Assembly: GCA_021769135.1 (NCBI GenBank)
Contig: JAETTM010000006.1
Location: 1 to 64,000 of the forward strand
Direction of reading: 5' to 3'
Source: Lachnospiraceae bacterium
GTDB lineage: Bacteria; Bacillota; Clostridia; Lachnospirales; Lachnospiraceae
Length of the DNA stretch: 64,000 nucleotides
Shown: piece after piece, positions 981 through 38,765 of the stretch
Position numbering within the stretch: position 1 is the first letter of the stretch
Layout of the letters: the number at the start of each line of letters is the position of its first letter
The notes under the pieces: generated by a model
The model's database searches: none
Told to the model about the DNA's origin: nothing
Seen by the model: only the letters and a program-made list of their open reading frames with translations
Position numbers and translations under genes: made by a program

Positions 981-2072
981 TTAAGTAATCCCTTTTTCTG
1001 CCCATCCGCCGCCATACATATCATGCTGTACCTCCTGCTGGTAGTAATGGCTCATGGTTGAGGGGGCATTGTAAAGCGCCGTGATCAGATATGCCCTGAT
1101 ATTAGTGATCTTTGTGACAGTTTCCCGCATACAGTCCATAACATATCCCACATGGCTGCTGTTCAGCTTCAAAAAGCGGGATTTTACAAGCTCATAAGGG
1201 TACTCCTCCCCATTGATGCGGACTGCCTTGCGTTTTACACAGACCACATCGCAGATAGTTTCATAGATTTCCTCATACATCTCCCTGTCTCCATGCCTGT
1301 CATATTTCATGTGGTGTTCGTATTCCAGATTATCACGGATCAGTGCCATATATGCGTTTGTTTCATCTATCTCATCAATCCTATCGTCTTTTCCCTGCGT
1401 TCCTGCGCTGTCCATACTTCCCGCAGACTGATTGATAGGATTGGTATAACTTATATCAGTATAATTCTGGTTGTTATAGTTAGTATTGTTATAATTAGGG
1501 GCAAATTCTTTTACTTCTTGAAGTCCGGTTTCTTTACTTCCGGAAGTAAAATTATTTTCCCTCTTGAAGTCAGGTTCCCTTACCTGCTGAAGTTCAGTTT
1601 CTTTACTTCCAGAAGTAAAATTATTTTCCCTCTTGAAGTAAAGATTTTTTACTTCTGCGGAAACATCAGTGTCTGCCGGCTTTTCTTCACCCTCTTTTTC
1701 CGGCGTGGAAGTAAAATTTTTCACATAGATTATATCTGGTTTCCCAAGCCCCCTGCGCTTCTTCTCTATCAGCCCAATCCCATTATCTGTATCCAGTTCC
1801 CTGATGACCTTTATGCAGGTAGGCTTGGAGCATCCCAGATCTTCCATGATGTTCTCCACGGCATAGATAATATATGCCCTGTTTTCATCGTCCAGCCACC
1901 CGTTTTTCATAGACAGCGACATCCTGTCGAGCATCAGCCCATACAGGAGCTTGGCATCGCTGCTAAGCCCCTTGAAACGCTCGTCCTTAATCAGCAGGCG
2001 AGGAACACGGTAAAAAGAAAACTGGTCTGCCTGAATGCCATAATAATAATCAAATTTCAATGGCTCGCCCAT
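981..2072 (-). CDS. RepA_N-type replication initiator
   Basis: A 363-residue protein. Residues about 10-115 match the RepA_N winged-helix domain of Gram-positive plasmid initiators: FYRVPRLLIKDERFKGLS, then AKLLYGLMLDRMSLS, NGWLDDENRAYIIY and GLGKPDIIYVKNF. The start is ATG 2072, with GGAGG eight bases upstream; an upstream in-frame ATG at 2120 lies inside parB. The middle contains a duplicated peptide, FKRENNFTSGSKET, encoded by near-identical DNA. Family knowledge: several RepA_N plasmids carry their origin inside the rep gene, so these repeats are candidate iterons. The gene follows parA and parB in one operon and implies that the element replicates after excision. Confidence 0.9.
   Translation of the reverse strand: MGEPLKFDYYYGIQADQFSFYRVPRLLIKDERFKGLSSDAKLLYGLMLDRMSLSMKNGWLDDENRAYIIYAVENIMEDLGCSKPTCIKVIRELDTDNGIGLIEKKRRGLGKPDIIYVKNFTSTPEKEGEEKPADTDVSAEVKNLYFKRENNFTSGSKETELQQVREPDFKRENNFTSGSKETGLQEVKEFAPNYNNTNYNNQNYTDISYTNPINQSAGSMDSAGTQGKDDRIDEIDETNAYMALIRDNLEYEHHMKYDRHGDREMYEEIYETICDVVCVKRKAVRINGEEYPYELVKSRFLKLNSSHVGYVMDCMRETVTKITNIRAYLITALYNAPSTMSHYYQQEVQHDMYGGGWAEKGIT
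1505..1660. repeat. Direct repeats inside the initiator gene (possible origin)
   Basis: Two copies of a roughly 63-base unit, each with a CTTCCGGAAG- or CTTCCAGAAG-centred palindrome and AGTAAAATTATTTTCC, sit back to back. A third partial copy follows (CTTGAAGTAAAGATTTTTTA). The repeats lie in the linker of the RepA_N coding sequence, where related plasmids keep their origin. The origin role is inferred. Confidence 0.55.
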
Positions 2073-2085
2073 TTTACCGCCTCCT

Positions 2086-2961
2086 TCACTGTTTCCTCTG
2101 CCACTCCTCCAAAAGCTCAAGAATGATACCCTCTATATCGTCATTGGAATAATCCTCTGGAAAATACCTGCTGATCTTATCGCCTTTAATCGTCACTTTT
2201 CTTTCCTTCGGCTTTTCCTCTGTCAGTATCAGCCTGACCATTGGAAGCGTAAGCTCGCCGCTTTTGCCATATTCCTTCAGCTTTGCCGATTGGGAAGCGT
2301 TCACTCCCGCCCCTGTTTCCTTTAAGATAACAGCTACCCACTGCTGGGCTTCTTCGTCCAGGAAAGAAATGTCCACTCCCTGCGCTATCCCTATCTTTTT
2401 CCTATCCACCATGTCAAGCAGCTCATCCGAAAGCCTCGCAAGCCATACATACCTCTGTACCGTCTTTCCGCTCTCCCCGGCAGCTTCCCCCACTTCGTCA
2501 AGGGTGCTGCCGCCTTTGCTGCCCTGATGTTTCATCGCTTCGTACTTCATGGCATAAGCCCTTGCCTTTTCGCTCGGTAAAATATCCTCTCTCTGGATAT
2601 TGGAATCCACCATGATAATCGTGGCTTCATCGTCCGTATAATTCCTGACAATGACGGGCATCGTGTCCAGTCCTGCCCTTTCCGAACCCCGTTTCCTCCG
2701 GTGTCCGGCTATGATCTCATAGCCGCCCCCTTCCCTCGGTCTTGCAAGCCCCGGCACAAGCACACCGTATCTGCTGATACTCTCCGTGGTTTCCTCCATT
2801 TTTTCATCATCCAGGACACGGAAAGGGTGTCCTTTGAATGTATGTAAATCAGCCAGCTTCGCATGGATGATCTGCTCCCCTGCTGTATTTTCCGCACCGC
2901 CAAATAGATCGTCAAAGCTGCTCAGCCTGACTTTCGATGCGCTCCCCGTCTTACTGCCCAT
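2086..2961 (-). CDS. parB: ParB/Spo0J-family partition protein
   Basis: A 291-residue centromere-binding protein. The ParB N-terminal nuclease-like domain is visible as HPFRVLDDEKMEE, GVLVPGLARPR and IIAGHRRKRGSERAG. It is followed by a helix-turn-helix region (VGEAAGESGKTVQRYVWLARL). The start is taken as ATG 2961, which overlaps the parA stop and has GAGGAGG upstream. This is the usual translational coupling of parA and parB. The protein most likely binds parS-like sites on the excised element and stimulates ParA. It belongs to the mobile element and is not the chromosomal Spo0J, because it sits with a plasmid-type initiator. Confidence 0.9.
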   Translation of the reverse strand: MGSKTGSASKVRLSSFDDLFGGAENTAGEQIIHAKLADLHTFKGHPFRVLDDEKMEETTESISRYGVLVPGLARPREGGGYEIIAGHRRKRGSERAGLDTMPVIVRNYTDDEATIIMVDSNIQREDILPSEKARAYAMKYEAMKHQGSKGGSTLDEVGEAAGESGKTVQRYVWLARLSDELLDMVDRKKIGIAQGVDISFLDEEAQQWVAVILKETGAGVNASQSAKLKEYGKSGELTLPMVRLILTEEKPKERKVTIKGDKISRYFPEDYSNDDIEGIILELLEEWQRKQ

Positions 2962-3736
2962 TGCCAAGCACCTCCTCTGTCAAAGACTGGTATGCGCCCG
3001 CAACCCTGCCTTTCGGGTCATGCTGGTAGATGCTGACGCCTTCCGCAGAAGTTTCTGCAGCCCTTACCGACATCGGTATGCTGTTCTCAAATATCCGTAC
3101 CCTGCTCCCATACGTTTCAATAAGCAGCGCTGTAATATCCCTCGCATAATTGGTTCGGTTATCTACCATCGTCAGCAGAATACCCTCAATCTCCAGTTTG
3201 GGATTGATCTGCCGTTTTACCTTGCCTATGGTCTTAATAAGCTGTTCCAGACCTTTCACGGGCAGGTATGCGGCCTGCACGGGTATCAGAATGCTGTCCG
3301 CACATGCAAAGGCATTTATGGTAATCATTCCAAGTGAGGGCATACAGTCAATCAAAATGTAATCGTACTTATCCTTTATCATCTCCACATAAGAGCGCAT
3401 CATAATTTCCCTGCTCATCACATTTACAAGAGAAACCTCCAGACCGGACAGCTCAATGTTCCCCGGCATCAGGTCAATCCCTTCTTCATGCTTTAAGATA
3501 CCGTAATCTGGTTCCATTTCTTCATCGTTGATAACCTTTTCCATGACACTTGCAAGGGTGACTTCCAGCTTGTCAGGCTCCGTAAAGCCAAGGCTTGCAG
3601 TCAAACTTCCCTGTGCATCCGCATCAATAAGTAAAACTCTTTTTCCCTGTTTTGCCAGCCCGATCCCCAGGTTGCTCGTTGTGGTGGTCTTGCCGACACC
3701 GCCTTTCTGGTTTGCGATTGCTATAATTTTACACAT
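2951..3736 (-). CDS. parA: ParA/Soj-family partition ATPase
   Basis: A 261-residue cytoplasmic ATPase of the ParA/Soj type. The deviant Walker A motif is KGGVGKTTTT at residues 11-20, Walker A' is VLLIDADAQG and Walker B is YILIDCMPSLG. The length is normal and no DNA-binding N-terminal extension is present, so it is the small (Soj-like) form. It is the first partition gene, overlaps parB by a few bases, and precedes the RepA_N initiator. Together these form a plasmid-maintenance module inside an integrated element. Confidence 0.95.
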   Translation of the reverse strand: MCKIIAIANQKGGVGKTTTTSNLGIGLAKQGKRVLLIDADAQGSLTASLGFTEPDKLEVTLASVMEKVINDEEMEPDYGILKHEEGIDLMPGNIELSGLEVSLVNVMSREIMMRSYVEMIKDKYDYILIDCMPSLGMITINAFACADSILIPVQAAYLPVKGLEQLIKTIGKVKRQINPKLEIEGILLTMVDNRTNYARDITALLIETYGSRVRIFENSIPMSVRAAETSAEGVSIYQHDPKGRVAGAYQSLTEEVLGNGQ

Positions 3737-3753
3737 GGTCTTATTCCTCCGTA

Positions 3754-3918
3754 TCAGTCAGATTTTTCTTTAATGTTGGCCTTCTGCACTTCCACATAAG
3801 CCCGGTAATACCTGTTTGTACCTTTATTCCGGTACAGCTCCGAAACTTCCGTCACAGTCACTTTGGGCTGTCTTTTCAGAATCTTCTCGAACCACTTAAT
3901 ATCATTCTTCGTTCCCAT
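3754..3918 (-). CDS. Small hypothetical protein of the mobile element
   Basis: A 54-residue basic protein beginning MGTKNDIKWFEKIL. The start at 3918 overlaps the end of the preceding gene (stop at 3902), suggesting translational coupling. The visible sequence, KVTVTEVSELYRNKGTNRYYRAYVEV, looks like a short regulatory or DNA-binding peptide, but I cannot assign a family. It sits 17 bases upstream of parA in the same operon. Confidence 0.55.
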   Translation of the reverse strand: MGTKNDIKWFEKILKRQPKVTVTEVSELYRNKGTNRYYRAYVEVQKANIKEKSD

Positions 3919-4420
3919 CAGTCGAATTTTCAGCACGTTTCCTCTCCATTTCTGCAAGGATATCTTCCATGGACTTCTGCTTTTTGCAGTATTCCGGATA
4001 ACGGAGCTTAATGCCCTGCCAAAAGTACATTGCATAGCCGCAGCAGAAAATATCGCTTACCGAATACTCCCTGCACTCTTTGATCTGCTCATCCTTGCGC
4101 TTATAATCGTCAACACTCGGCGTTCCGTCTGTGTAAAGGTTAAAGGCAAGCCTTACCACCCGGACACTGCCGCTTGTCTGCCAGCCTTGATGCAGGCACT
4201 CCGGCTTGATAAATCCGGACTTCATATCGTAGATCTGGCTGAAATGATACCTTGTATCCTCTGAAATACCGAGAATGTAGATCAAAGCCTTGTGATAGCA
4301 GTCCTGATACCTTGCCTGTTCCAATTTCTCATAATAAAACTTCTCATGTTCCTCGTTTGCAAAAACCATGTGTGTGTTGTTGGTGCTTCGCACCTCTGCC
4401 CTTAACGCTGTGTTGTTCAT
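3902..4420 (-). CDS. Conserved hypothetical protein, first gene of the element operon
   Basis: A 172-residue soluble protein starting at ATG 4420 behind GGAGG. It contains FANEEHEKFYYEKL, YILGISEDTRYHF and KPECLHQGWQTSGS, and resembles a small family (possibly DUF6075) often seen beside replication genes of Firmicute conjugative elements. I am not sure of the family name. It is the first gene of the leftward operon that continues through parA, parB and the initiator, and it may regulate or assist these. No enzymatic motif is evident. Confidence 0.65.
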   Translation of the reverse strand: MNNTALRAEVRSTNNTHMVFANEEHEKFYYEKLEQARYQDCYHKALIYILGISEDTRYHFSQIYDMKSGFIKPECLHQGWQTSGSVRVVRLAFNLYTDGTPSVDDYKRKDEQIKECREYSVSDIFCCGYAMYFWQGIKLRYPEYCKKQKSMEDILAEMERKRAENSTDGNEE

Positions 4421-4450
4421 ACCTGAACCTCCTTCATTAAAGATATTGAA

Positions 4451-4491
4451 AAATAAAAAAAGGGAACAAACCCCAAATAGGGTCTATTCCC
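4451..4491 (-). terminator. Intrinsic terminator just upstream of the element operon
   Basis: On the minus strand GGGAA and TTCCC close a stem that also pairs internal CCC with GGG, followed by TTTTTTTATTTTT. It ends about 40 bases before the start at 4420, so it would stop transcripts entering from the ppdK side or attenuate the element operon. Confidence 0.8.
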
Positions 4492-4501
4492 AAACATTGA
4501 A

Positions 4502-4528
4502 CAAGGGAAAGCATCTCGCTTTCCCTTG
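4502..4528. repeat. Perfect hairpin near the element boundary
   Basis: CAAGGGAAAGC pairs with GCTTTCCCTTG around the 5-base loop ATCTC. It lacks a T-run, and it lies between the ppdK-proximal segment and the intrinsic terminator of the element operon. Confidence 0.6.
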
Positions 4529-4534
4529 CAGAAC

Positions 4535-4670
4535 TTATATATAGACTTTTACCACAATATCCTTAAATCTGTTAGCCTTCGTGTACTCCGGACGTTCAGC
4601 CATAAATGCCCTCACATCCTCTCTTGACACCGTTAAGGTACAGAAGTAAATATATGGTTGTCTAATTCCT
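4535..4670 (-). other. Junction segment between mobile element and ppdK
   Basis: An open frame crosses the ppdK stop and continues to 4535, encoding a tail that includes SREDVRAFMAERPEYTKANR. Its upstream part is merely the ppdK end in another frame. The tail could be a short element gene starting at an internal ATG (MAERPEYTKANRF, about 22 residues) or a remnant cut by integration. I could not identify the exact attachment site. The element most plausibly ends somewhere in this segment. Confidence 0.3.
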
Positions 4671-7289
4671 CTAGTTGTTAATAGCCGCCTGTGCCGCCGC
4701 CAACCTGGCAATCGGCACCCTGAACGGTGAGCAGGACACATAGTTCAATCCAACCTTATGGCAGAATTCAACGGATGAAGGATCTCCGCCATGCTCCCCG
4801 CAGATTCCCAGTTTCAAGTCCGGCCTTGTAGCCCTTCCTTTTTCTGCCGCCATCTTCACGAGCTGCCCTACGCCGTTCTGGTCCAGTTTGGCAAACGGGT
4901 CGGACTCATAAATTTTGCTCTTATAGTAGGATGCCAGGAACTTGCCCGCATCGTCACGTGAGAATCCAAAGGTCATCTGTGTCAGGTCATTGGTTCCGAA
5001 GGAGAAGAATTCCGCTTCTTCCGCTATTTCATCCGCTAACAGGGCGGCTCTCGGAATCTCAATCATCGTACCTACATGATAAACGATATCAGAATTCTTT
5101 TCTTTCTTCACTTCTTCCGCCACTGCTACCACTACTTCCTTCACATATTTCAGCTCTTTCTTATCGCCTACCAAAGGAATCATGATTTCAGGCTCTATAT
5201 TATAACCTTTTTCTTCTTTTACTTCAATAGCTGCTTCCATCACCGCCCTTGTCTGCATTCTTGCAATTTCAGGGTAAGTAACGGAGAGACGGCATCCCCT
5301 GTGGCCCATCATAGGGTTGAATTCATGCAGGGAATCGCATGTGCTCTTCACTTCCTCTACCGTAAGGTTCATATCCCTTGCCAAATCTTCAATATCTTTC
5401 TCTTCCGTAGGAACGAACTCATGAAGCGGGGGATCCAGGAAACGAATCGTTACCGGCCTTCCTTCCATTACTTCGTACAGTTCCTTGAAATCGCCCTTCT
5501 GGAAAGGAATCAGTTCTTCCAGAGCCTCTTCCCTTGCCTCTACCGTGGACGAAAGAATCATCTTACGGATTTTCGGGATTCTATCCGGCTCAAAGAACAT
5601 ATGCTCCGTACGGCAAAGTCCAATGCCCTCTGCCCCCAGCTTCACGGCGTTTGCCGCATCTGTTGGCGTATCCGCATTCGTACGCACTTTCAAAGTACGG
5701 AATTTATCCGCCCACGCCATGATTCTCTTGAAGTTGCCGGTGATTCCAGCTTCTACTGTCTTGATATCCCCTTTATAAATCTTGCCGGTGGAGCCATCCA
5801 GAGAAATATAATCCCCTTCCTTGAAACGGTATCCGCCCAGTTCGAACACTTTCGCTTGTTCATCGATAATAATATCGCCGCACCCGGATACGCAGCATGT
5901 TCCCATTCCGCGCGCAACAACCGCAGCATGGCTCGTCATACCGCCCCTGACTGTCAGGACGCCTTCCGCAGCATGCATACCTTCAATGTCTTCCGGCGAA
6001 GTCTCAAGGCGCACCAGAATAACCCTTTCCTCCCTTTCATGTGCCAGCACGGCATCTTCTGCATTGAAATAAACTCTTCCTGCCGCTGCCCCCGGGGATG
6101 CCGGAAGGGCCTGTCCGATAACTTCGCCCCTTTTAAGCGCATCCACATCGAAATTCGGATGGAGAAGCTGGTCCAAAGACTTCGCTTCAATCCTGCATAC
6201 CGCTTCTTCCGGGGTAATCATTCCTTCATCCACCAAATCGCAGGCAATCTGGATAGCCGCACCCGCTGTGCGCTTGCCGCTCCGCGTCTGCAGGAAGAAC
6301 AGTTTTCCGTCTTCAATGGTAAATTCCATATCCTGCATATCCCTGTAATGGGATTCCAGTTTATGGGCAATTTCTATAAATTGGGCATAGCATTCCGGCA
6401 AATCCTCCTGCAGTTTCGTAATCGGCTGAGGGGTGCGGATGCCTGCTACCACATCTTCACCCTGTGCATTGATTAAATATTCCCCGTAAATGCCCTTCGC
6501 CCCTGTGGACGGGTTTCTTGTAAATGCAACCCCCGTTCCGGAAGTATTGCCCATATTTCCGAATACCATAGCCTGTACATTAACGGCGGTTCCCCAATCG
6601 CCCGGGATATCGTTCATCCTCCGGTATACGATAGCCCTGTCGTTATCCCATGAACGGAATACCGCTTTCACGGCTTCCATCAACTGAACCTTCGGCTCCT
6701 GCGGGAAATCCGTTCCCATTTTATCCTTATATATCTGTTTAAATTTCTGAATTACTTCCTTCAAATCATCCGCTGTCAGTTCTGTATCAAAGTTCACTCC
6801 CTTGCTGTCCTTGATCTCGTCCAGAATCCTTTCAAAATAAGACTTTGGAATCTCCATTACCACATCGGAGAACATCTGGATAAATCTCCGGTAAGAATCA
6901 TAGGCAAACCTGGGATTTCCTGTTTTCCTTGCAAACCCCTCTACTGCCACATCTGTAAGGCCAAGGTTCAAAATCGTATCCATCATTCCCGGCATGGATG
7001 CCCTTGCACCCGAACGCACCGATACTAACAATGGATTTTCCGTATCCCCGAATTTCTTCCCCTGTTTTTTCTCCAATCCTTCCAATGCTTCAAAAATCTG
7101 CTTTTCGATTTCCTCGGAAATTTTCTTGCCCTGATTATAATAGTCCGTACATGCTTCCGTTGTTACCGTAAATCCCTGCGGTATCGGCAAACCCAGCCTT
7201 GTCATTTCCGCCAGATTTGCGCCTTTCCCCCCTAAAAGGTTTTTCATGTCTGCACTGCCTTCTTCAAATAAGTACACCCATTTTGCCAT
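4671..7289 (-). CDS. ppdK: Pyruvate, phosphate dikinase
   Basis: An 872-residue enzyme interconverting pyruvate, ATP and Pi with PEP, AMP and PPi in the cytoplasm. The length equals that of clostridial PPDK. The N-terminal ATP-grasp part starts MAKWVYLFEEGSADMKN. The phosphohistidine loop GGMTSHAAVVARG lies near residue 455, and the C-terminal PEP/pyruvate barrel has GICGEHGGDP with the catalytic cysteine near 830. The start is ATG 7289, behind GGAGAGGG; an upstream in-frame ATG at 7379 falls in the duplicated leader. In anaerobes this enzyme often works in the glycolytic direction with PPi. Its 3' end borders the mobile element. Confidence 0.97.
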   Translation of the reverse strand: MAKWVYLFEEGSADMKNLLGGKGANLAEMTRLGLPIPQGFTVTTEACTDYYNQGKKISEEIEKQIFEALEGLEKKQGKKFGDTENPLLVSVRSGARASMPGMMDTILNLGLTDVAVEGFARKTGNPRFAYDSYRRFIQMFSDVVMEIPKSYFERILDEIKDSKGVNFDTELTADDLKEVIQKFKQIYKDKMGTDFPQEPKVQLMEAVKAVFRSWDNDRAIVYRRMNDIPGDWGTAVNVQAMVFGNMGNTSGTGVAFTRNPSTGAKGIYGEYLINAQGEDVVAGIRTPQPITKLQEDLPECYAQFIEIAHKLESHYRDMQDMEFTIEDGKLFFLQTRSGKRTAGAAIQIACDLVDEGMITPEEAVCRIEAKSLDQLLHPNFDVDALKRGEVIGQALPASPGAAAGRVYFNAEDAVLAHEREERVILVRLETSPEDIEGMHAAEGVLTVRGGMTSHAAVVARGMGTCCVSGCGDIIIDEQAKVFELGGYRFKEGDYISLDGSTGKIYKGDIKTVEAGITGNFKRIMAWADKFRTLKVRTNADTPTDAANAVKLGAEGIGLCRTEHMFFEPDRIPKIRKMILSSTVEAREEALEELIPFQKGDFKELYEVMEGRPVTIRFLDPPLHEFVPTEEKDIEDLARDMNLTVEEVKSTCDSLHEFNPMMGHRGCRLSVTYPEIARMQTRAVMEAAIEVKEEKGYNIEPEIMIPLVGDKKELKYVKEVVVAVAEEVKKEKNSDIVYHVGTMIEIPRAALLADEIAEEAEFFSFGTNDLTQMTFGFSRDDAGKFLASYYKSKIYESDPFAKLDQNGVGQLVKMAAEKGRATRPDLKLGICGEHGGDPSSVEFCHKVGLNYVSCSPFRVPIARLAAAQAAINN

Positions 7290-34686: not shown

Positions 34687-35274
34687 TTACACCGGTTCCG
34701 CAATCCTGCTGACCCCCACATAGATATTTGAAATCTGATACCACGTAGGATAGTCCACTATCCCGGACTGGGGAAGGTTGAATATCCTCTGAAATGCCCT
34801 TACTGCCTCCGCCGTCCTGTTCCCATAAATCCCATCCGCCGCGATTACCGGAATCGCCGGATAATTTTGGGCAATCCGGTTCAGCTGCTGCTGCATCTGG
34901 CGCACCTTTTCCCCTCTGGAACCGATATTCAGGTCATACCCCGGCCAGGAGGACGGCACCCCCGCGATGCTTTCCGCAGAATTGATATACATATCGTTCC
35001 CAAAATAGTAACGGATAATCTCAATCGCCGAATACCCTTCATCCCCCAGATATTTGGAGCCCCATTGGCTCAAGCCGCTGCATGTAGCCCGGTTGCCATC
35101 ACAGTAGGAAGTAAAAATTGGCTGCCGCACCCCTGGGCGGGATAAATAATTGGCAAAAATCGTATCCACCAGATAGTCGATATTCTCGAAAATATTCCTT
35201 CCCCGCATCCATTTCTGGTCATAGGCAGTGGAAGAAGTAATGGTAAAATTAAATCCCTGATTTCTGTACCCCAT
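34687..35274 (-). pseudogene. C-terminal half of a split SpoIID-like, peptidoglycan-binding protein
   Basis: Homology-like sequence begins at YRNQGFNFTITSSTAYDQ (about 35268) and continues with CSGLSQWGSKYLGDEGYSAI, which resembles the end of a SpoIID/LytB domain. A peptidoglycan-binding domain follows (NIGSRGEKVRQMQQQLNRI, then DGIYGNRTAEAVRAFQR). The ATG at 35274 is fortuitous: the natural N-terminal half is at 37973-38671, beyond the recombinase element. Joining both at AAT gives an uninterrupted frame, WYRN-QGFNF. The whole protein probably acts on spore or cell-wall peptidoglycan; which of these is not shown. Confidence 0.85.
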
Positions 35275-35311
35275 AACCCATACTCATTCGGGATTGAAAC
35301 AACTCGTTCAA

Positions 35312-35405
35312 GTCAACAACTCTGCTGCAAGCAGCGGGGTTGTTGACCCTCGCGGCAGTCGCCAAATGTCTGCAAGCAGCCACTTGGCTCATTGCTCGCG
35401 GGAAT
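35312..35405 (+). repeat. Family C repeat at the end of the recombinase gene
   Basis: A shortened copy of the repeat at 22081-22210 (GTCAACAACTCTGCTGCAAG at the start, CTCATTGCTCGCGGGAATCA at the end). The last codons and stop of the serine recombinase lie in this repeat. Confidence 0.75.
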
Positions 35406-37056
35406 CAATTTTGAAGCGGATGTTTATATTGTCTTTTCTAATGTCAATGCGCTCTATCAGTTTGTTTGCCAGAACTCTCTTTCGCGAAACATCTGCATTC
35501 AAGAAGATTTTTTTCCATGTGAGGAGTTTCTGTTGGCTTTCCACCCATTCATTCATAGATACAGATGATTGCTCTATTTCTGACTTTATCTGATTTACTT
35601 TATCCTGCTGTACCTGTTCCCTTTTTTCGTGTTCTTCAATCATTGACATTAATCTTTTTAGGCTCATATCATAACTGCCTGTCATAGCTTCCGGTATTTT
35701 GCTGTTCATGAAATCAATTTCATTCCTGATTTTTTCAAGCTTCTTTTTCTCTTTTGACAATTCTGATTCTTTTTTTCTTTGTTCCTCACCCTGTTTTTGT
35801 TTGATTAGCTGAAAAATATCTTCGTTTTCCTGCAGCTTATCGATATATCCGGATAAAATGTTGAATACAACCCCGTCCACCTTATCGGCTCTGAATTGTT
35901 TTGTCTTATCATGGGGAACGCCTTGCCATGCCTGATTGCATTTATAGATTGGAATTTTGCTTGTACGTCTTTCGCCTGTATCTTTAATCGTCCAGTAATT
36001 ATATTTGCTTCCATTCACCATTTTACAGCCGCAATACCCACAATGCAGTATATCTATCAAAGGAAGCATGCCATTATTTCTGCTGATTACCGTTACATTT
36101 TGGTTTTCGAGTTTCTTTGTATATCTACTTGCCCGTAATGCACGCTTTTCCTGGACTCTGTTCCATGTATTATCATCAATAATCCTAATTGCTTCGTTTG
36201 GTTCATCCGCTATAATCCAGTCTTTACTTTTCAAAGAATGATATTTTCCGTTTATTCTTTCCCTGCGTTTATATGCAACACGGCCGGAATAAATAGGATT
36301 TGTCAAGATGCTTGTAATGGTTCCGCCTTGCCAGTTTTCCTTCTTTGGAGAGAGCTGTCTGTACTTCTCATTCTCATTTAACACTTTCGCGATTTTTACA
36401 GAACCAAACTCCATATTCAGAGACAGGCTGTAGATATGCTTTACAATTTCAGCTTCATCAGAACATATCACCAATTTTTTCAATAGCCGTCCATGATTAC
36501 TCAATTTACCTGAATCTTCCAATCTATAACCATAAGGTGCTTTACCTCCCATAAACTTGCCCCCGGCCACCAGTTTTTGGGCAGTATCTTTTACCCTCAT
36601 GCCTGTATCAGAACTGCTTTTTTGCGCGTTCCCGTATCTTAAAGCTAATACCATCTGCCCCATTATGTCATTGGTTTCAGGGGAAATACAGCCGTCTTTC
36701 ACCGTGTATATGTCAACTCCTAAACTTTTCAGAGCCATAACATAATACCCTATTTCCCACATTCTCCGTCCGATGCGGTCATCTTTATAAACAACTAATA
36801 TATCATACTCTTTGTTTTGGGCATCTTTATAGGCTTCTTGCAAAGCCTCCCTGTCCTCGACAGAATTTTTGTATCCGCTGATACCGCCTTCAAAATATTC
36901 CTTTTCATCAAGTTTCCAATCTTTATGTTGATAGACATAATCTGATACAAGCTGCCGCTGTACATCTAAATCTCCATCAGCATCAAGCTGCTGTTCAGAG
37001 CTTACTCTTAATAACATTCTTGCCCGTTTTATAGCTTCTGTTTCTTTTTTAACCAT
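35389..37056 (-). CDS. Large serine recombinase
   Basis: A 555-residue site-specific recombinase. The resolvase catalytic domain is at residues 10-150, with the nucleophile in MLLRVSSEQQ and ILVVYKDDRIGRRMWEIGYY following. A Recombinase domain follows (GGKAPYGYRLE, then SILTNPIYSGRVAYKRRE). Next come a zinc ribbon starting CGYCGCKMVNG and a long coiled coil near 410-500 (KKESELSKEKKKLEKIRNEI). The length is typical of integrases that act alone. It probably integrated the surrounding element and could excise it. Its last residues are encoded by repeat C. Confidence 0.95.
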   Translation of the reverse strand: MVKKETEAIKRARMLLRVSSEQQLDADGDLDVQRQLVSDYVYQHKDWKLDEKEYFEGGISGYKNSVEDREALQEAYKDAQNKEYDILVVYKDDRIGRRMWEIGYYVMALKSLGVDIYTVKDGCISPETNDIMGQMVLALRYGNAQKSSSDTGMRVKDTAQKLVAGGKFMGGKAPYGYRLEDSGKLSNHGRLLKKLVICSDEAEIVKHIYSLSLNMEFGSVKIAKVLNENEKYRQLSPKKENWQGGTITSILTNPIYSGRVAYKRRERINGKYHSLKSKDWIIADEPNEAIRIIDDNTWNRVQEKRALRASRYTKKLENQNVTVISRNNGMLPLIDILHCGYCGCKMVNGSKYNYWTIKDTGERRTSKIPIYKCNQAWQGVPHDKTKQFRADKVDGVVFNILSGYIDKLQENEDIFQLIKQKQGEEQRKKESELSKEKKKLEKIRNEIDFMNSKIPEAMTGSYDMSLKRLMSMIEEHEKREQVQQDKVNQIKSEIEQSSVSMNEWVESQQKLLTWKKIFLNADVSRKRVLANKLIERIDIRKDNINIRFKIDSREQ

Positions 37057-37090
37057 GAATTTTCCCCTTTCCGGTGCATGACCTATAATG

Positions 37091-37285
37091 CTACATTTTT
37101 AATACTTTTTCAAGATACTCATTTAGCATTCCGGCCAAAATACTTTTTGCTTCTGATATAATAAAGCCCTCCTGAGAATTGCACGGAAATTCTAAAGTAA
37201 TTTCCATACCGTTATCCTCTGTTGTAATGCATTGAAATACCTGACTATCCACAGATTTCTCCAAGGTTCTTCTCTTTACCCTCAT
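37091..37285 (-). CDS. Small protein upstream of the recombinase
   Basis: A peptide of about 64 residues from ATG 37285 (MRVKRRTLEKSVDSQVFQC), ending SILAGMLNEYLEKVLKM. An ATG at 37312 would lengthen it into a terminator. No clear ribosome site is seen. Its place and C-terminal helix recall the small TnpW-like proteins found beside clostridial serine recombinases, where they may help excision; this is a positional argument only. Confidence 0.5.
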   Translation of the reverse strand: MRVKRRTLEKSVDSQVFQCITTEDNGMEITLEFPCNSQEGFIISEAKSILAGMLNEYLEKVLKM

Positions 37286-37301
37286 TTTATGAATAGAAAC
37301 A

Positions 37302-37352
37302 AAAAAAATCACTCTAATAGCCTTTTTGAACAGCTATAAAGTGATTTTTTGC
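37302..37352 (-). terminator. Terminator after the DUF4160 gene
   Basis: On the minus strand AAAAATCACT and ATAGC pair with GCTAT and AGTGATTTTT, followed by further T residues. It separates the two-gene pair from the recombinase genes. Confidence 0.8.
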
Positions 37353-37364
37353 CCTTTCAATTTT

Positions 37365-37643
37365 TTAACAATAGAATTTAATTTCATCTGTTACAAAAAA
37401 TTTCTTCCACTCGGCGCAGATAAGGAAAAACTGTGCTGATATAAATGTCATTAATGTATTTAATTCCTTTTTCGAAATCTGACTTCCATTGCTGGCCAGG
37501 ATACACCCTCCCTTTTTTGTCAGCCATATCTTGGTGCTGTTTGGAAAAGGCTTCCCTTTCGATATGTGTACATGAATCGGTTCTCCGTTCTCATTAGCCC
37601 AGAAATAAATTTTATAGCCGCTTACTGTGAATAAATTAGGCAA
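37365..37643 (-). CDS. DUF4160 protein
   Basis: A 92-residue protein beginning at TTG 37643 (LPNLFTVSGYKIYFWANENG) with EPIHVHISKGKP, the DUF4160 signature, and WLTKKGGCILASNGS. I chose the TTG start because it overlaps the end of the 89-residue gene, follows GAGGGGGG, and matches where family members begin; no ATG lies nearby in frame. DUF4160 proteins usually come paired with a small partner gene and have been suggested to be toxin-antitoxin-like. That has not been shown here. Confidence 0.8.
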   Translation of the reverse strand: MPNLFTVSGYKIYFWANENGEPIHVHISKGKPFPNSTKIWLTKKGGCILASNGSQISKKELNTLMTFISAQFFLICAEWKKFFVTDEIKFYC

Positions 37644-37905
37644 TCTGGATTCCCCCCTCTGCCGCATATTTGTACAGCAAATGTGCATTACTTTGAAGCA
37701 ATTGCTCAAATAAGGCAATTTCTTCATCAGAATATCCCTCTTTTTGAATCCACCTATACTCTGGAAGTTCACATCTTGCAGAATCAAAGCCATCTTCTGT
37801 CGGACGTTCAAAATGGACAATTACTTTTTGCACATTATTTTCTTCTATAATCTGTGAGTGGACAATCTCTGTTTCATCATATAAAGTCATATACGGATAC
37901 ATCAT
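37636..37905 (-). CDS. Partner protein of the DUF4160 gene
   Basis: An 89-residue acidic protein (MMYPYMTLYDETEIVHSQII, VIVHFERPTEDGFDSARCEL, LLQSNAHLLYKYAAEGG). The start follows AAGGAG. It overlaps the DUF4160 gene by 8 bases, so the two proteins are made together, as is common for this pair in Lachnospiraceae. It has no known activity. It is the first gene inside the recombinase element, read from near the host junction. Confidence 0.75.
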   Translation of the reverse strand: MMYPYMTLYDETEIVHSQIIEENNVQKVIVHFERPTEDGFDSARCELPEYRWIQKEGYSDEEIALFEQLLQSNAHLLYKYAAEGGIQIA

Positions 37906-37972
37906 GTCTTTCCTCTCCTTTCCTTACTTTTCATTATACCCTTGCCTATTGTAAAAAACAATCCCTGAACCA

Positions 37973-38671
37973 CTATATATTCCGATACCACTCCGTATAC
38001 ACCCTGTTCAAAGTCACTGACATAATAGCCAGAATATTGGCATAAATGGAATTTTCCGGCCATGTGGCATAAATCTCCGAGGAAGCTACATTTTTAATAT
38101 AATCTTTGTATTTTACATAATAGTTAGGGGCAGTGGAATCCGAAGGCACACCGTCATGCACCACTACGTATTCCGGGATTACTACCCTGCTAAGTACGAT
38201 TTCCCCGGTTTCATCCATGGGCTTGATTTCGTCCTCCGGAATTTTAGGCGGATATTCCCCATACAACGTATGATCCGGGATAACGATGGTTTCCTCTTTT
38301 CCACGCTCCACCTCTATAGGGTTCATCTCAATGGGCTGCAATGCCAGAGAGTCCGGCAGGATTTCCGTTCCGGATACCATGACCGGCTCATACCCGGGCG
38401 CTTCCACTTCGATATTGTATTCCGAATAAGGCTGGTCTGCCCCCGGCTCCATGCTGTATTCCAACGGCGGGGAGGGCAGCGCGATTTCCTCCGTTTGTCC
38501 TGATATATCGGTGTTCAATGTTTCGATGATGGAATCGGGCATTCCCTTATAGGAAATTTTAATCGTGGCGTCCGTGACCGGAAGCAATCCGATGGAAGAG
38601 GTCACGCTGATTTTCAGCCTCCCGGTATCAGGGCCGGCATTCTGCATAGCATGTATCATATTTACAGGCAT
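37973..38671 (-). pseudogene. N-terminal half of the split SpoIID-like protein
   Basis: A fragment of 232 residues. Residues 18-115 form a beta-sandwich, like carboxypeptidase-regulatory domains (LKISVTSSIGLLPVTDATIK, YNIEVEAPGYEPVMVSG). The first part of the SpoIID-like domain follows from about 165 (YVVVHDGVPSDSTAPNYYV, NVASSEIYATWPENSIYANI, NRVYTEWYRN). It ends at an artificial Ile-stop inside the element. The missing part lies at 34687-35268. A short cytosolic start without a signal peptide is seen, as in spore-coat-associated relatives. Confidence 0.85.
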
Positions 38672-38677
38672 AACAAA

Positions 38678-38715
38678 ACCTCTGCATATTTGTTTAAAAC
38701 ATTATATGCAGAGGT
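38678..38715 (-). terminator. htpG terminator overlapping the ribosome site of the next gene
   Basis: ACCTCTGCATAT and ATATGCAGAGGT form a perfect 12-base stem around a 14-base loop. On the minus strand TTTTGTT follows. The 3' arm holds AGAGG, the only ribosome-binding site for the SpoIID-like gene at 38671. Confidence 0.8.
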
Positions 38716-38765
38716 CTCTTAGCCCGTGATTCTTTACTTACACATATGCCGCTGGCGCTGTCCTT

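Follow-up and report, generated by a model that had tools for sequence, protein, structure and literature searches.

A serine-recombinase element splits the spore cortex-lytic enzyme gene sleC in Lachnospiraceae and may be excised during sporulation

Results

The window analysed here, a 64,000-nucleotide stretch of contig JAETTM010000006.1 (assembly GCA_021769135.1) from a Lachnospiraceae bacterium, contains the spore cortex-lytic enzyme gene sleC, cut in two by a 2,719-bp element that encodes a large serine recombinase. All window features described below lie on the minus strand. The 5′ part of the gene, from the start codon to the crossover, occupies 37987..38671, its open reading frame (ORF) continuing into the element to 37973. 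The intervening element spans 35269..37987, limits placed at GT dinucleotides from symmetry and comparison, and the 3′ part, which holds the rest of the catalytic region and a PG_binding_1 domain (PF01471), runs from the crossover to the stop codon at 34687..35269. The gene halves were identified by sequence search against solved structures. Residues 17-231 of the 232 in the N half (ORF 37973-38671) align to residues 61-285 of PDB 9h68_A (E 8e-61), and residues 3-192 of the 195 in the C half (ORF 34687-35274) to residues 283-474 of the same chain (E 2e-65), which is titled "Spore cortex-lytic enzyme pre-pro-form". Because both halves are colinear with one solved SleC chain, and with the peptidoglycan-binding domain at the C terminus, the two are, as judged from the alignments, a single SleC protein from which nothing is lost at the join. 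An uninterrupted orthologue of 421 aa is present in a genome of the same genus (G006, L072:6988-8250), with identities of 95% and 96% to the first and second parts in the window. An earlier sequence-only reading had described the two halves as one split SpoIID-like protein; both lie where it placed them and together cover one SleC chain, so the split stands, whereas the name does not, since the C half resembles SpoIID/LytB only weakly (22.5 bits against a cut-off of 83.3).

The recombinase (35389..37056, 555 aa) has Resolvase (PF00239) and Recombinase (PF07508) domains over their cut-offs and a zinc ribbon (PF13408) below its own, and matches the PHROG 95 integrase at E 3e-75, which places it among the large serine recombinases and phage integrases. 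Upstream of it lies a small conserved gene at 37091..37252, the core of a 73-aa ORF (37091-37312) and a candidate recombination directionality factor. Two cargo ORFs follow further upstream: one with a DUF4160 domain at residues 68-139 (37365..37820) and one of 89 aa that is unassigned (37636..37905) and is 93% and 97% identical in two other elements, L031 and L034, which carry close copies of both. No phage structural or replication genes were recognised among the recombinase, the small gene and the two cargo ORFs, and the recombinase was the sole protein, of the window proteins searched, to match PHROGs below E 0.1. A prophage reading of the window element was rejected, as no structural genes were recognised. 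The inventory given earlier, a serine recombinase and three small genes with no phage genes, thus agrees with ours in contents and in the lack of phage structural genes, with the refinement that one of the small genes belongs to a recombinase-associated family.

The attachment (att) sites were compared across loci in which an aligned sleC part ends or starts at the site, with junctions placed by protein motif. In the window, attL (AGTGGTATCGGAATATATAGTGGTTCAGGG, 37963..37992) joins the sleC 5′ part to one element arm, and attR (CCCGAATGAGTATGGGTTATGGGGTACAGAAATCAGGG, 35255..35292) joins the other arm to the 3′ part. Across 32 left and 52 right junction rows, with L052 and L095 representing one stretch of DNA, both ends share the GT in TGG|TAC, a comparison in which the protein anchors partly fix the W and Y codons. 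When the two element arms are joined to deduce attP, the symmetry peaks at this GT in 22 of 27 loci and 3 to 6 nt away in the other five. The crossover is therefore most likely the GT of TGG|TAC, found in the window at 35268-35269 and 37987-37988. An AAT crossover, as first proposed, was rejected: the ends agree only around TGG|TA in many relatives, and only at GT there in L085 and L087. The preferred crossover lies 6 nt from the limits of the earlier reading, a shift that leaves the 2,719-bp insert length and the exact in-frame join unchanged, since either join gives W-Y-R-N-Q-G. Judged from sequence alone, with the GT crossover, the symmetric deduced attP and an uninterrupted attP on a phage contig described below, recombination of attL with attR would restore the frame exactly. 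The window's gene parts, join, recombinase and partner gene are intact, and therefore the element should be able to leave.

The halves might instead function as two separate proteins and be kept for that reason. The window's C half does have an ATG, supplied by the element by chance. However, what precedes the C half is element DNA that differs from one element to another, often reading ...TTTCGGGGTAC without a start codon there, and in sister species the intact gene forms a single frame of 428-440 codons, which makes this account very improbable.

A pattern-based recombinase scan of one genome per species yielded 40 loci, in 39 of which the retrieved sequence includes one or more parts of sleC or its paralogue, and the gene is broken at the same codon wherever the junction is readable. 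Since this same-codon break recurs in many genomes, chance is untenable as an explanation. The recombinase has the opposite orientation in five loci (L036, L037, L042, L057 and L069). Among 200 family genomes drawn, 131 match sleC at E<=1e-20, most of them with a full-length frame. At least six are broken at the window's site (G000, G064, G127 and G197, with G073 and G162 seen through the C part alone) and at least ten at a second site, residues 291-293 of query P0001 (G057, G061, G077, G083, G086, G088, G118, G180, G222 and G231); these counts are lower bounds, taken among the matches listed and with contig-end cases left out. The second site holds other recombinase-like genes, read as such from ORFs of 511 and 521 residues in L099 and L090, and a third break position lies at residue 304 in L031, L032 and L034.

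The C part of sleC ends early, at residues 291-304, in L031, L032, L034, L037, L051, L058, L068 and L142, and in these eight loci the gene appears to be in three pieces. In two genomes, G016 (L031) and G019 (L034, Eubacterium plexicaudatum), three pieces occur in the same order and strand on one contig, the second and third about 58 kb apart in G016 and 66 kb in G019, and the third piece is open to its end. Cargo differs among elements: one at the first site (L033:7540-14690) carries two long ABC-exporter-like ORFs (646 and 760 aa) and a MarR-like ORF, labels assigned by reading. In L101 (G118), the second-site insert has an amidase-like ORF adjoining a small membrane-type ORF, again labelled by reading, and because of these ORFs some sleC inserts may be prophages. 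A viral contig (L146) has in its flank an otherwise continuous sleC whose alignment breaks off at query residue 406, next to a distant recombinase; this may mark one more insertion position close to the 3′ end of the gene.

Within the genus of the window, the gene (hereafter sleC1) is uninterrupted and full-length in 6 of 16 genomes (G001, G002, G006, G007, G010 and G011), and in G008 it runs unbroken across the site in a copy truncated by contig ends. The other nine have a split gene (in G004 by the N part only, in G013 by the C part only). The recombinase was found at E<=1e-30 in the same nine genomes and in none of the seven with a continuous gene; nine of the ten recombinase matches in the genus lie at sleC1 or its paralogue sleC2. 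The element thus interrupts a spore gene whose intact form is known from sister species. The sequence-only reading had called for a search of related strains, reasoning that the lack of any intact gene, or homologues ending naturally at each half, would speak against it; with full-length or continuous sleC1 in these seven genomes, neither is the case.

The paralogue sleC2, whose C part shows about 49% identity, is intact in G000, G005, G006, G012, G013 and G014. In G003, G004, G009 and G015 it is split, as is sleC1. In each of these four genomes (G004 being 65% complete) the search yielded only one such recombinase, in sleC2. In G003, G009 and G015 the sleC2 elements measure 1.9-2.1 kb, with one small ORF and the recombinase. 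The sleC1 insert of G003 is 1.35 kb long and encodes a secreted-looking repeat protein of 397 residues and no recombinase, and that of G009 retains a 29-residue recombinase remnant. Proteins 58-87% identical to the G003 cargo occur in the sleC1 elements of G004, G009, G012, G014 and G015, and in G012 and G014 this cargo adjoins a recombinase 58-62% identical to those of sleC2. The simplest account would be that the recombinase disappeared from the sleC1 insert in genomes where the one in sleC2 acts in trans. Two contigs of G015, C59 and C39 (L125 and L076), end inside the sleC1 element and share an identical 127-bp overlap, an unresolved assembly branch. This overlap was considered as a trace of excised DNA and rejected, as the branch lies away from the att site.

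The small gene upstream of the recombinase was followed with a profile built from eight of these proteins and refined iteratively against 24,093 six-frame segments; the profile replaced an initial sequence pattern that matched 10 of 52 loci. It matches 43 loci, and in 42 of them the small gene lies on the same strand as the recombinase and upstream of it, the end of its frame falling from 239 nt ahead of to 19 nt past the point where the recombinase match begins; the remaining locus, L105, has no recombinase match. E-values are inflated for members used in building, and the matches in L077, L096 and L075 are weak; L143, L122 and L142 are matched though outside the building set. No match was found in 10 of the 52 recombinase-bearing loci: L052/L095 (one locus, cut), L103 and L108 (whose recombinase matches are distant, 22-24%), L049, L061, L063 and the sleC2 elements L085-L087, where a comparable ORF occupies that position. 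Pfam and PHROGs searches with the family gave nothing significant (best E 0.12), and the window copy gave no match in either at E below 1. Its position, size and pairing with the recombinase suggest that the small protein is a directionality factor, comparable to CD1234 of the skin element in Clostridioides difficile (PMC5025042) and to GirX of gin (PMC5595907).

This pairing bears on reversible phase variation, in which the element would leave and re-enter sleC in vegetative cells and so set the fraction of germinable spores. The att sites and the intact recombinase allow both directions, and the yin element in yabG of Clostridium botulinum is described as both integrated and excised within one culture (PMC10747680). 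However, large serine recombinases usually need a separate excision factor, and a conserved partner gene is present; we therefore give phase variation little credence.

A direct link of the element family to phages is indicated by L143, a 145,752-base IMG/VR phage contig. Its recombinase, a relative at 58% identity, stands among phage-like ORFs (dUTPase- and tail-type, by eye). A small gene lies upstream, found at E 5e-10 by the profile, which was not trained on L143, and downstream lies the uninterrupted site accACGAATaagtgaatacaatgggGTAcaggaacagctactcATTCGTggtt, of the same form as the attP deduced from the split genes. No sleC parts were found in the 13.6 kb fetched of this contig. Among annotated phages, the 358 INPHARED records matched include none at 60% identity or above, the top-ranked standing at 26%.

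Up to the crossover, none of 32 N parts or 45 C parts has an in-frame stop; where several loci show TAG or TAA right after TGG, these bases belong to the element. For sleC2, G003 and G009 give a single 6.8-kb alignment at 85% that spans element and flanks, with a synonymous divergence (dS) of 0.66 for the recombinase against 0.74 and 0.76 for the gene, from which the sleC2 split is taken to be old and vertically inherited. Because of this age, sleC2 was chosen as the critical test of selection. The ratio of nonsynonymous to synonymous divergence (dN/dS) was calculated by the Nei-Gojobori method, which saturates at high dS, over pairs that share branches and are not independent. In the N part it was 0.035-0.099 for split copies (6 pairs, upper median 0.079) and 0.035-0.119 for intact copies (15 pairs, upper median 0.086). 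In the C part it was 0.061-0.093 for split copies (3 pairs, upper median 0.080) and 0.050-0.094 for intact copies (12 of 15 pairs with finite dS, upper median 0.075). Purifying selection on both halves of the anciently split sleC2 copies is thus undiminished relative to intact copies.

These values were set against plain insertional inactivation, in which sleC is simply the chance attB of a site-specific mobile element, the window's sleC1 no longer functions and its role falls to the intact sleC2. The intact sleC2 of the window's genome would fit this, as would a window insertion that may be young and is without the promoter box described below. So would horizontal spread: the elements also move between species, since recombinases that share 98% (L036/L037) or 92% (L064/L067) identity lie beside strongly diverged sleC genes. 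Against inactivation stand the gene parts free of stops, the splitting of both paralogues in four genomes, and the split sleC2 copies whose dN/dS lies inside the intact range at dS 0.7 and more, and we consider it unlikely. As for a substitute lytic enzyme, SleB had no matches over the cut-off in the window's genome; ten fell below it, some of them sleC itself.

Upstream of the window's sleC lies a sigma-K-type promoter, AC-N17-CATATAAT (38701..38727), present in all nine genus members examined of the 16. In the window and eight further members, the form AC-N16/17-CATATAAT stands 54-56 nt before the sleC1 start, with a spacer in L077 that can be read as 16 or 18. This form is the one given for the sigma-K promoter of C. 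difficile sigK, and C. difficile sleC is listed in the sigma-K regulon (PMC3789822). Looked for beyond the genus as well, the pattern precedes sleC in 27 of 49 upstream regions versus 11% of random windows, but 9 of the 27 come from the genus members.

For the small gene and the recombinase, CATAAAAT (37284..37291) is a possible, weak -10 element of a mother-cell-type promoter. As a general feature, the sigma-E/K -10 motif CATAnnWT before the small gene is weak, being found in 13 of 44 loci versus 17% of random windows and 18% of shuffles. A different box in the same region, near CGAATGYGACAAGCT, departs clearly from chance: it occurs with <=2 mismatches in 17 of 43 loci and with <=3 in 22 of 43, compared with 0.02% and 0.4% of single-base shuffles, for a consensus chosen after viewing the same sequences in related loci. 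In 18 of the 22 loci, 60-64 nt separate it from the start of the downstream profile match; L038, L044, L045 and L046 are examples. Its GACAA core is reminiscent of SpoIIID sites. In the window, CATAAAAT is still present despite the missing box upstream.

Away from sleC, an M23-peptidase gene in G012 (L123, G012:C10:80000-87000, at 1508-6640) is seemingly split by a 567-aa serine recombinase 30% identical to that of the window. The C part (6083-6640) carries PF01551, and the insert contains a methyl-accepting-type ORF. The same C part lies inside a longer frame of 364-400 aa in 12 of the 14 other matching genus genomes, the exceptions being G010, at a contig end, and G004, where the gene is broken.

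Discussion

We propose, with a probability of about 0.76, that the insert is a phage-derived, skin-like element that is excised in the sporulating mother cell with the help of its partner protein and thereby rebuilds sleC. It would be a reduced integrative element whose recombinase has its attB in a conserved stretch of sleC at the W-Y codons, with GT as the crossover. It would stay integrated, with sleC in two parts, during growth and in the chromosome of the forespore. In the sporulating mother cell, the recombinase, aided by the small protein as directionality factor, would excise it, and sleC, rejoined in frame, would be transcribed from its sigma-K-type promoter, which is consistent with mother-cell excision. 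The rebuilt cortex-lytic enzyme would then be packed into the spore for germination, and the element would still be inherited through the spore because the mother-cell chromosome is discarded. The skin-like excision first proposed from the letters of the locus is supported for the element family by the target codon, the intact genes of sister species, the symmetry of attP together with its phage counterpart, and the selection on split copies. Gene identity, the exact join, the att-site anatomy, the recurrence, the selection on split copies and the conserved partner gene are matters of observation in the loci compared.

Several points weigh against this proposal. Excision, its cell type and timing, and the role of the partner are deduced from these features. 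The intact sleC2 of the window's genome might make loss of sleC1 tolerable. The window's insertion itself may be recent, because its nearest relatives by sleC identity are empty (G006) or carry another recombinase (G005, 57%), and its closest elements (L031-L034) are in species whose sleC N part is 58-63% identical; selection during the split period was thus seen in relatives and not in the window's own copy. The window is also without the promoter box of many relatives (GAATxxGACAA; best match with 6 mismatches), apparently lost through a small deletion. The best match to the sigma-K model in the genome, a 213-residue frame that is probably sigma-K, scores 281 bits, below the cut-off of 298.65. 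The recombinase of E. plexicaudatum (L034:8001-9651) is spread over two frames, an apparent frameshift or sequencing error. Finally, one of the ten genus recombinases (G012:C10, 30%) lies away from sleC, and L070, the fortieth scanned locus, whose contig ends 165 bases into the recombinase, has no sleC part in the 8 kb upstream. Our confidence is held at its stated level because the window insertion may be recent, selection was seen in relatives only and sleC2 is intact.

A wider version of the proposal is developmental DNA splicing across the family. Different elements would repeatedly occupy sleC, leaving it in three pieces in some strains, and in some species the recombinase and partner carried by the small sleC2 element would also excise the recombinase-less sleC1 element, so that one switch rebuilds two germination enzymes. 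We offer this tentatively, at somewhat less than even odds.

Elements in sigK, spsM, gerE and yabG are established (PMC5025042, PMC4191935, PMC5595907, PMC10747680). As with skin in sigK of Bacillus subtilis and C. difficile, a serine recombinase here splits a mother-cell spore gene, and in C. difficile the directionality factor CD1234 is described as limiting skin excision to the mother cell (PMC5025042). However, skin is prophage-like and interrupts a regulator gene, whereas the window's element is 2.7 kb long, interrupts a germination enzyme and has no recognised phage structural genes; sleC elements also recur in two paralogues and at several gene positions. The gin element in gerE of B. 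cereus ATCC10987 is likewise without phage genes, and GirC and GirX are reported to rebuild a late mother-cell gene, but it is given as 28.6 kb with three recombinase genes (PMC5595907), compared with about 1.9-2.1 kb, one recombinase and one small ORF in some sleC2 elements; sleC elements also turn up repeatedly within a family. SPbeta in spsM of B. subtilis is a temperate phage in a spore gene whose excision at sporulation is described as rebuilding that gene (PMC4191935); it is a full phage, whereas the window's element is reduced, with a related module on one 145-kb phage contig (L143). The yin element also lies in a clostridial spore gene, and is described in integrated form and as an excised circle, but that gene is a different one, and yin is reported from a single isolate and from no other strain or species (PMC10747680).

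The fdxN element of heterocyst-forming cyanobacteria is excised during development. The window's recombinase resembles its recombinase XisF, at 80 bits against a cut-off of 375 (NF041201) and so below the family cut-off, but the gene, lineage and cell type differ.

Among open-licence PMC papers, no report of sleC as the target of such an element was found. What is new here is the target gene, struck repeatedly at several positions across a family, and the very small and recombinase-less forms of the element. Lacking any significant match in Pfam or PHROGs, the small-protein family is a candidate for a new directionality factor. Strain-named carriers among the loci (Eubacterium plexicaudatum ASF492, Eubacterium sp. 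14-2, Lachnospiraceae bacterium A2 and Hespellia stercorisuis DSM 15480) make direct testing possible. If the proposal is correct, excision-dependent gene assembly would extend beyond the few genes known so far and would recur in a germination-enzyme gene of gut Lachnospiraceae, with sleC2 elements far smaller than gin, and the spores of these bacteria would need a mobile element to obtain their cortex-lytic enzyme.

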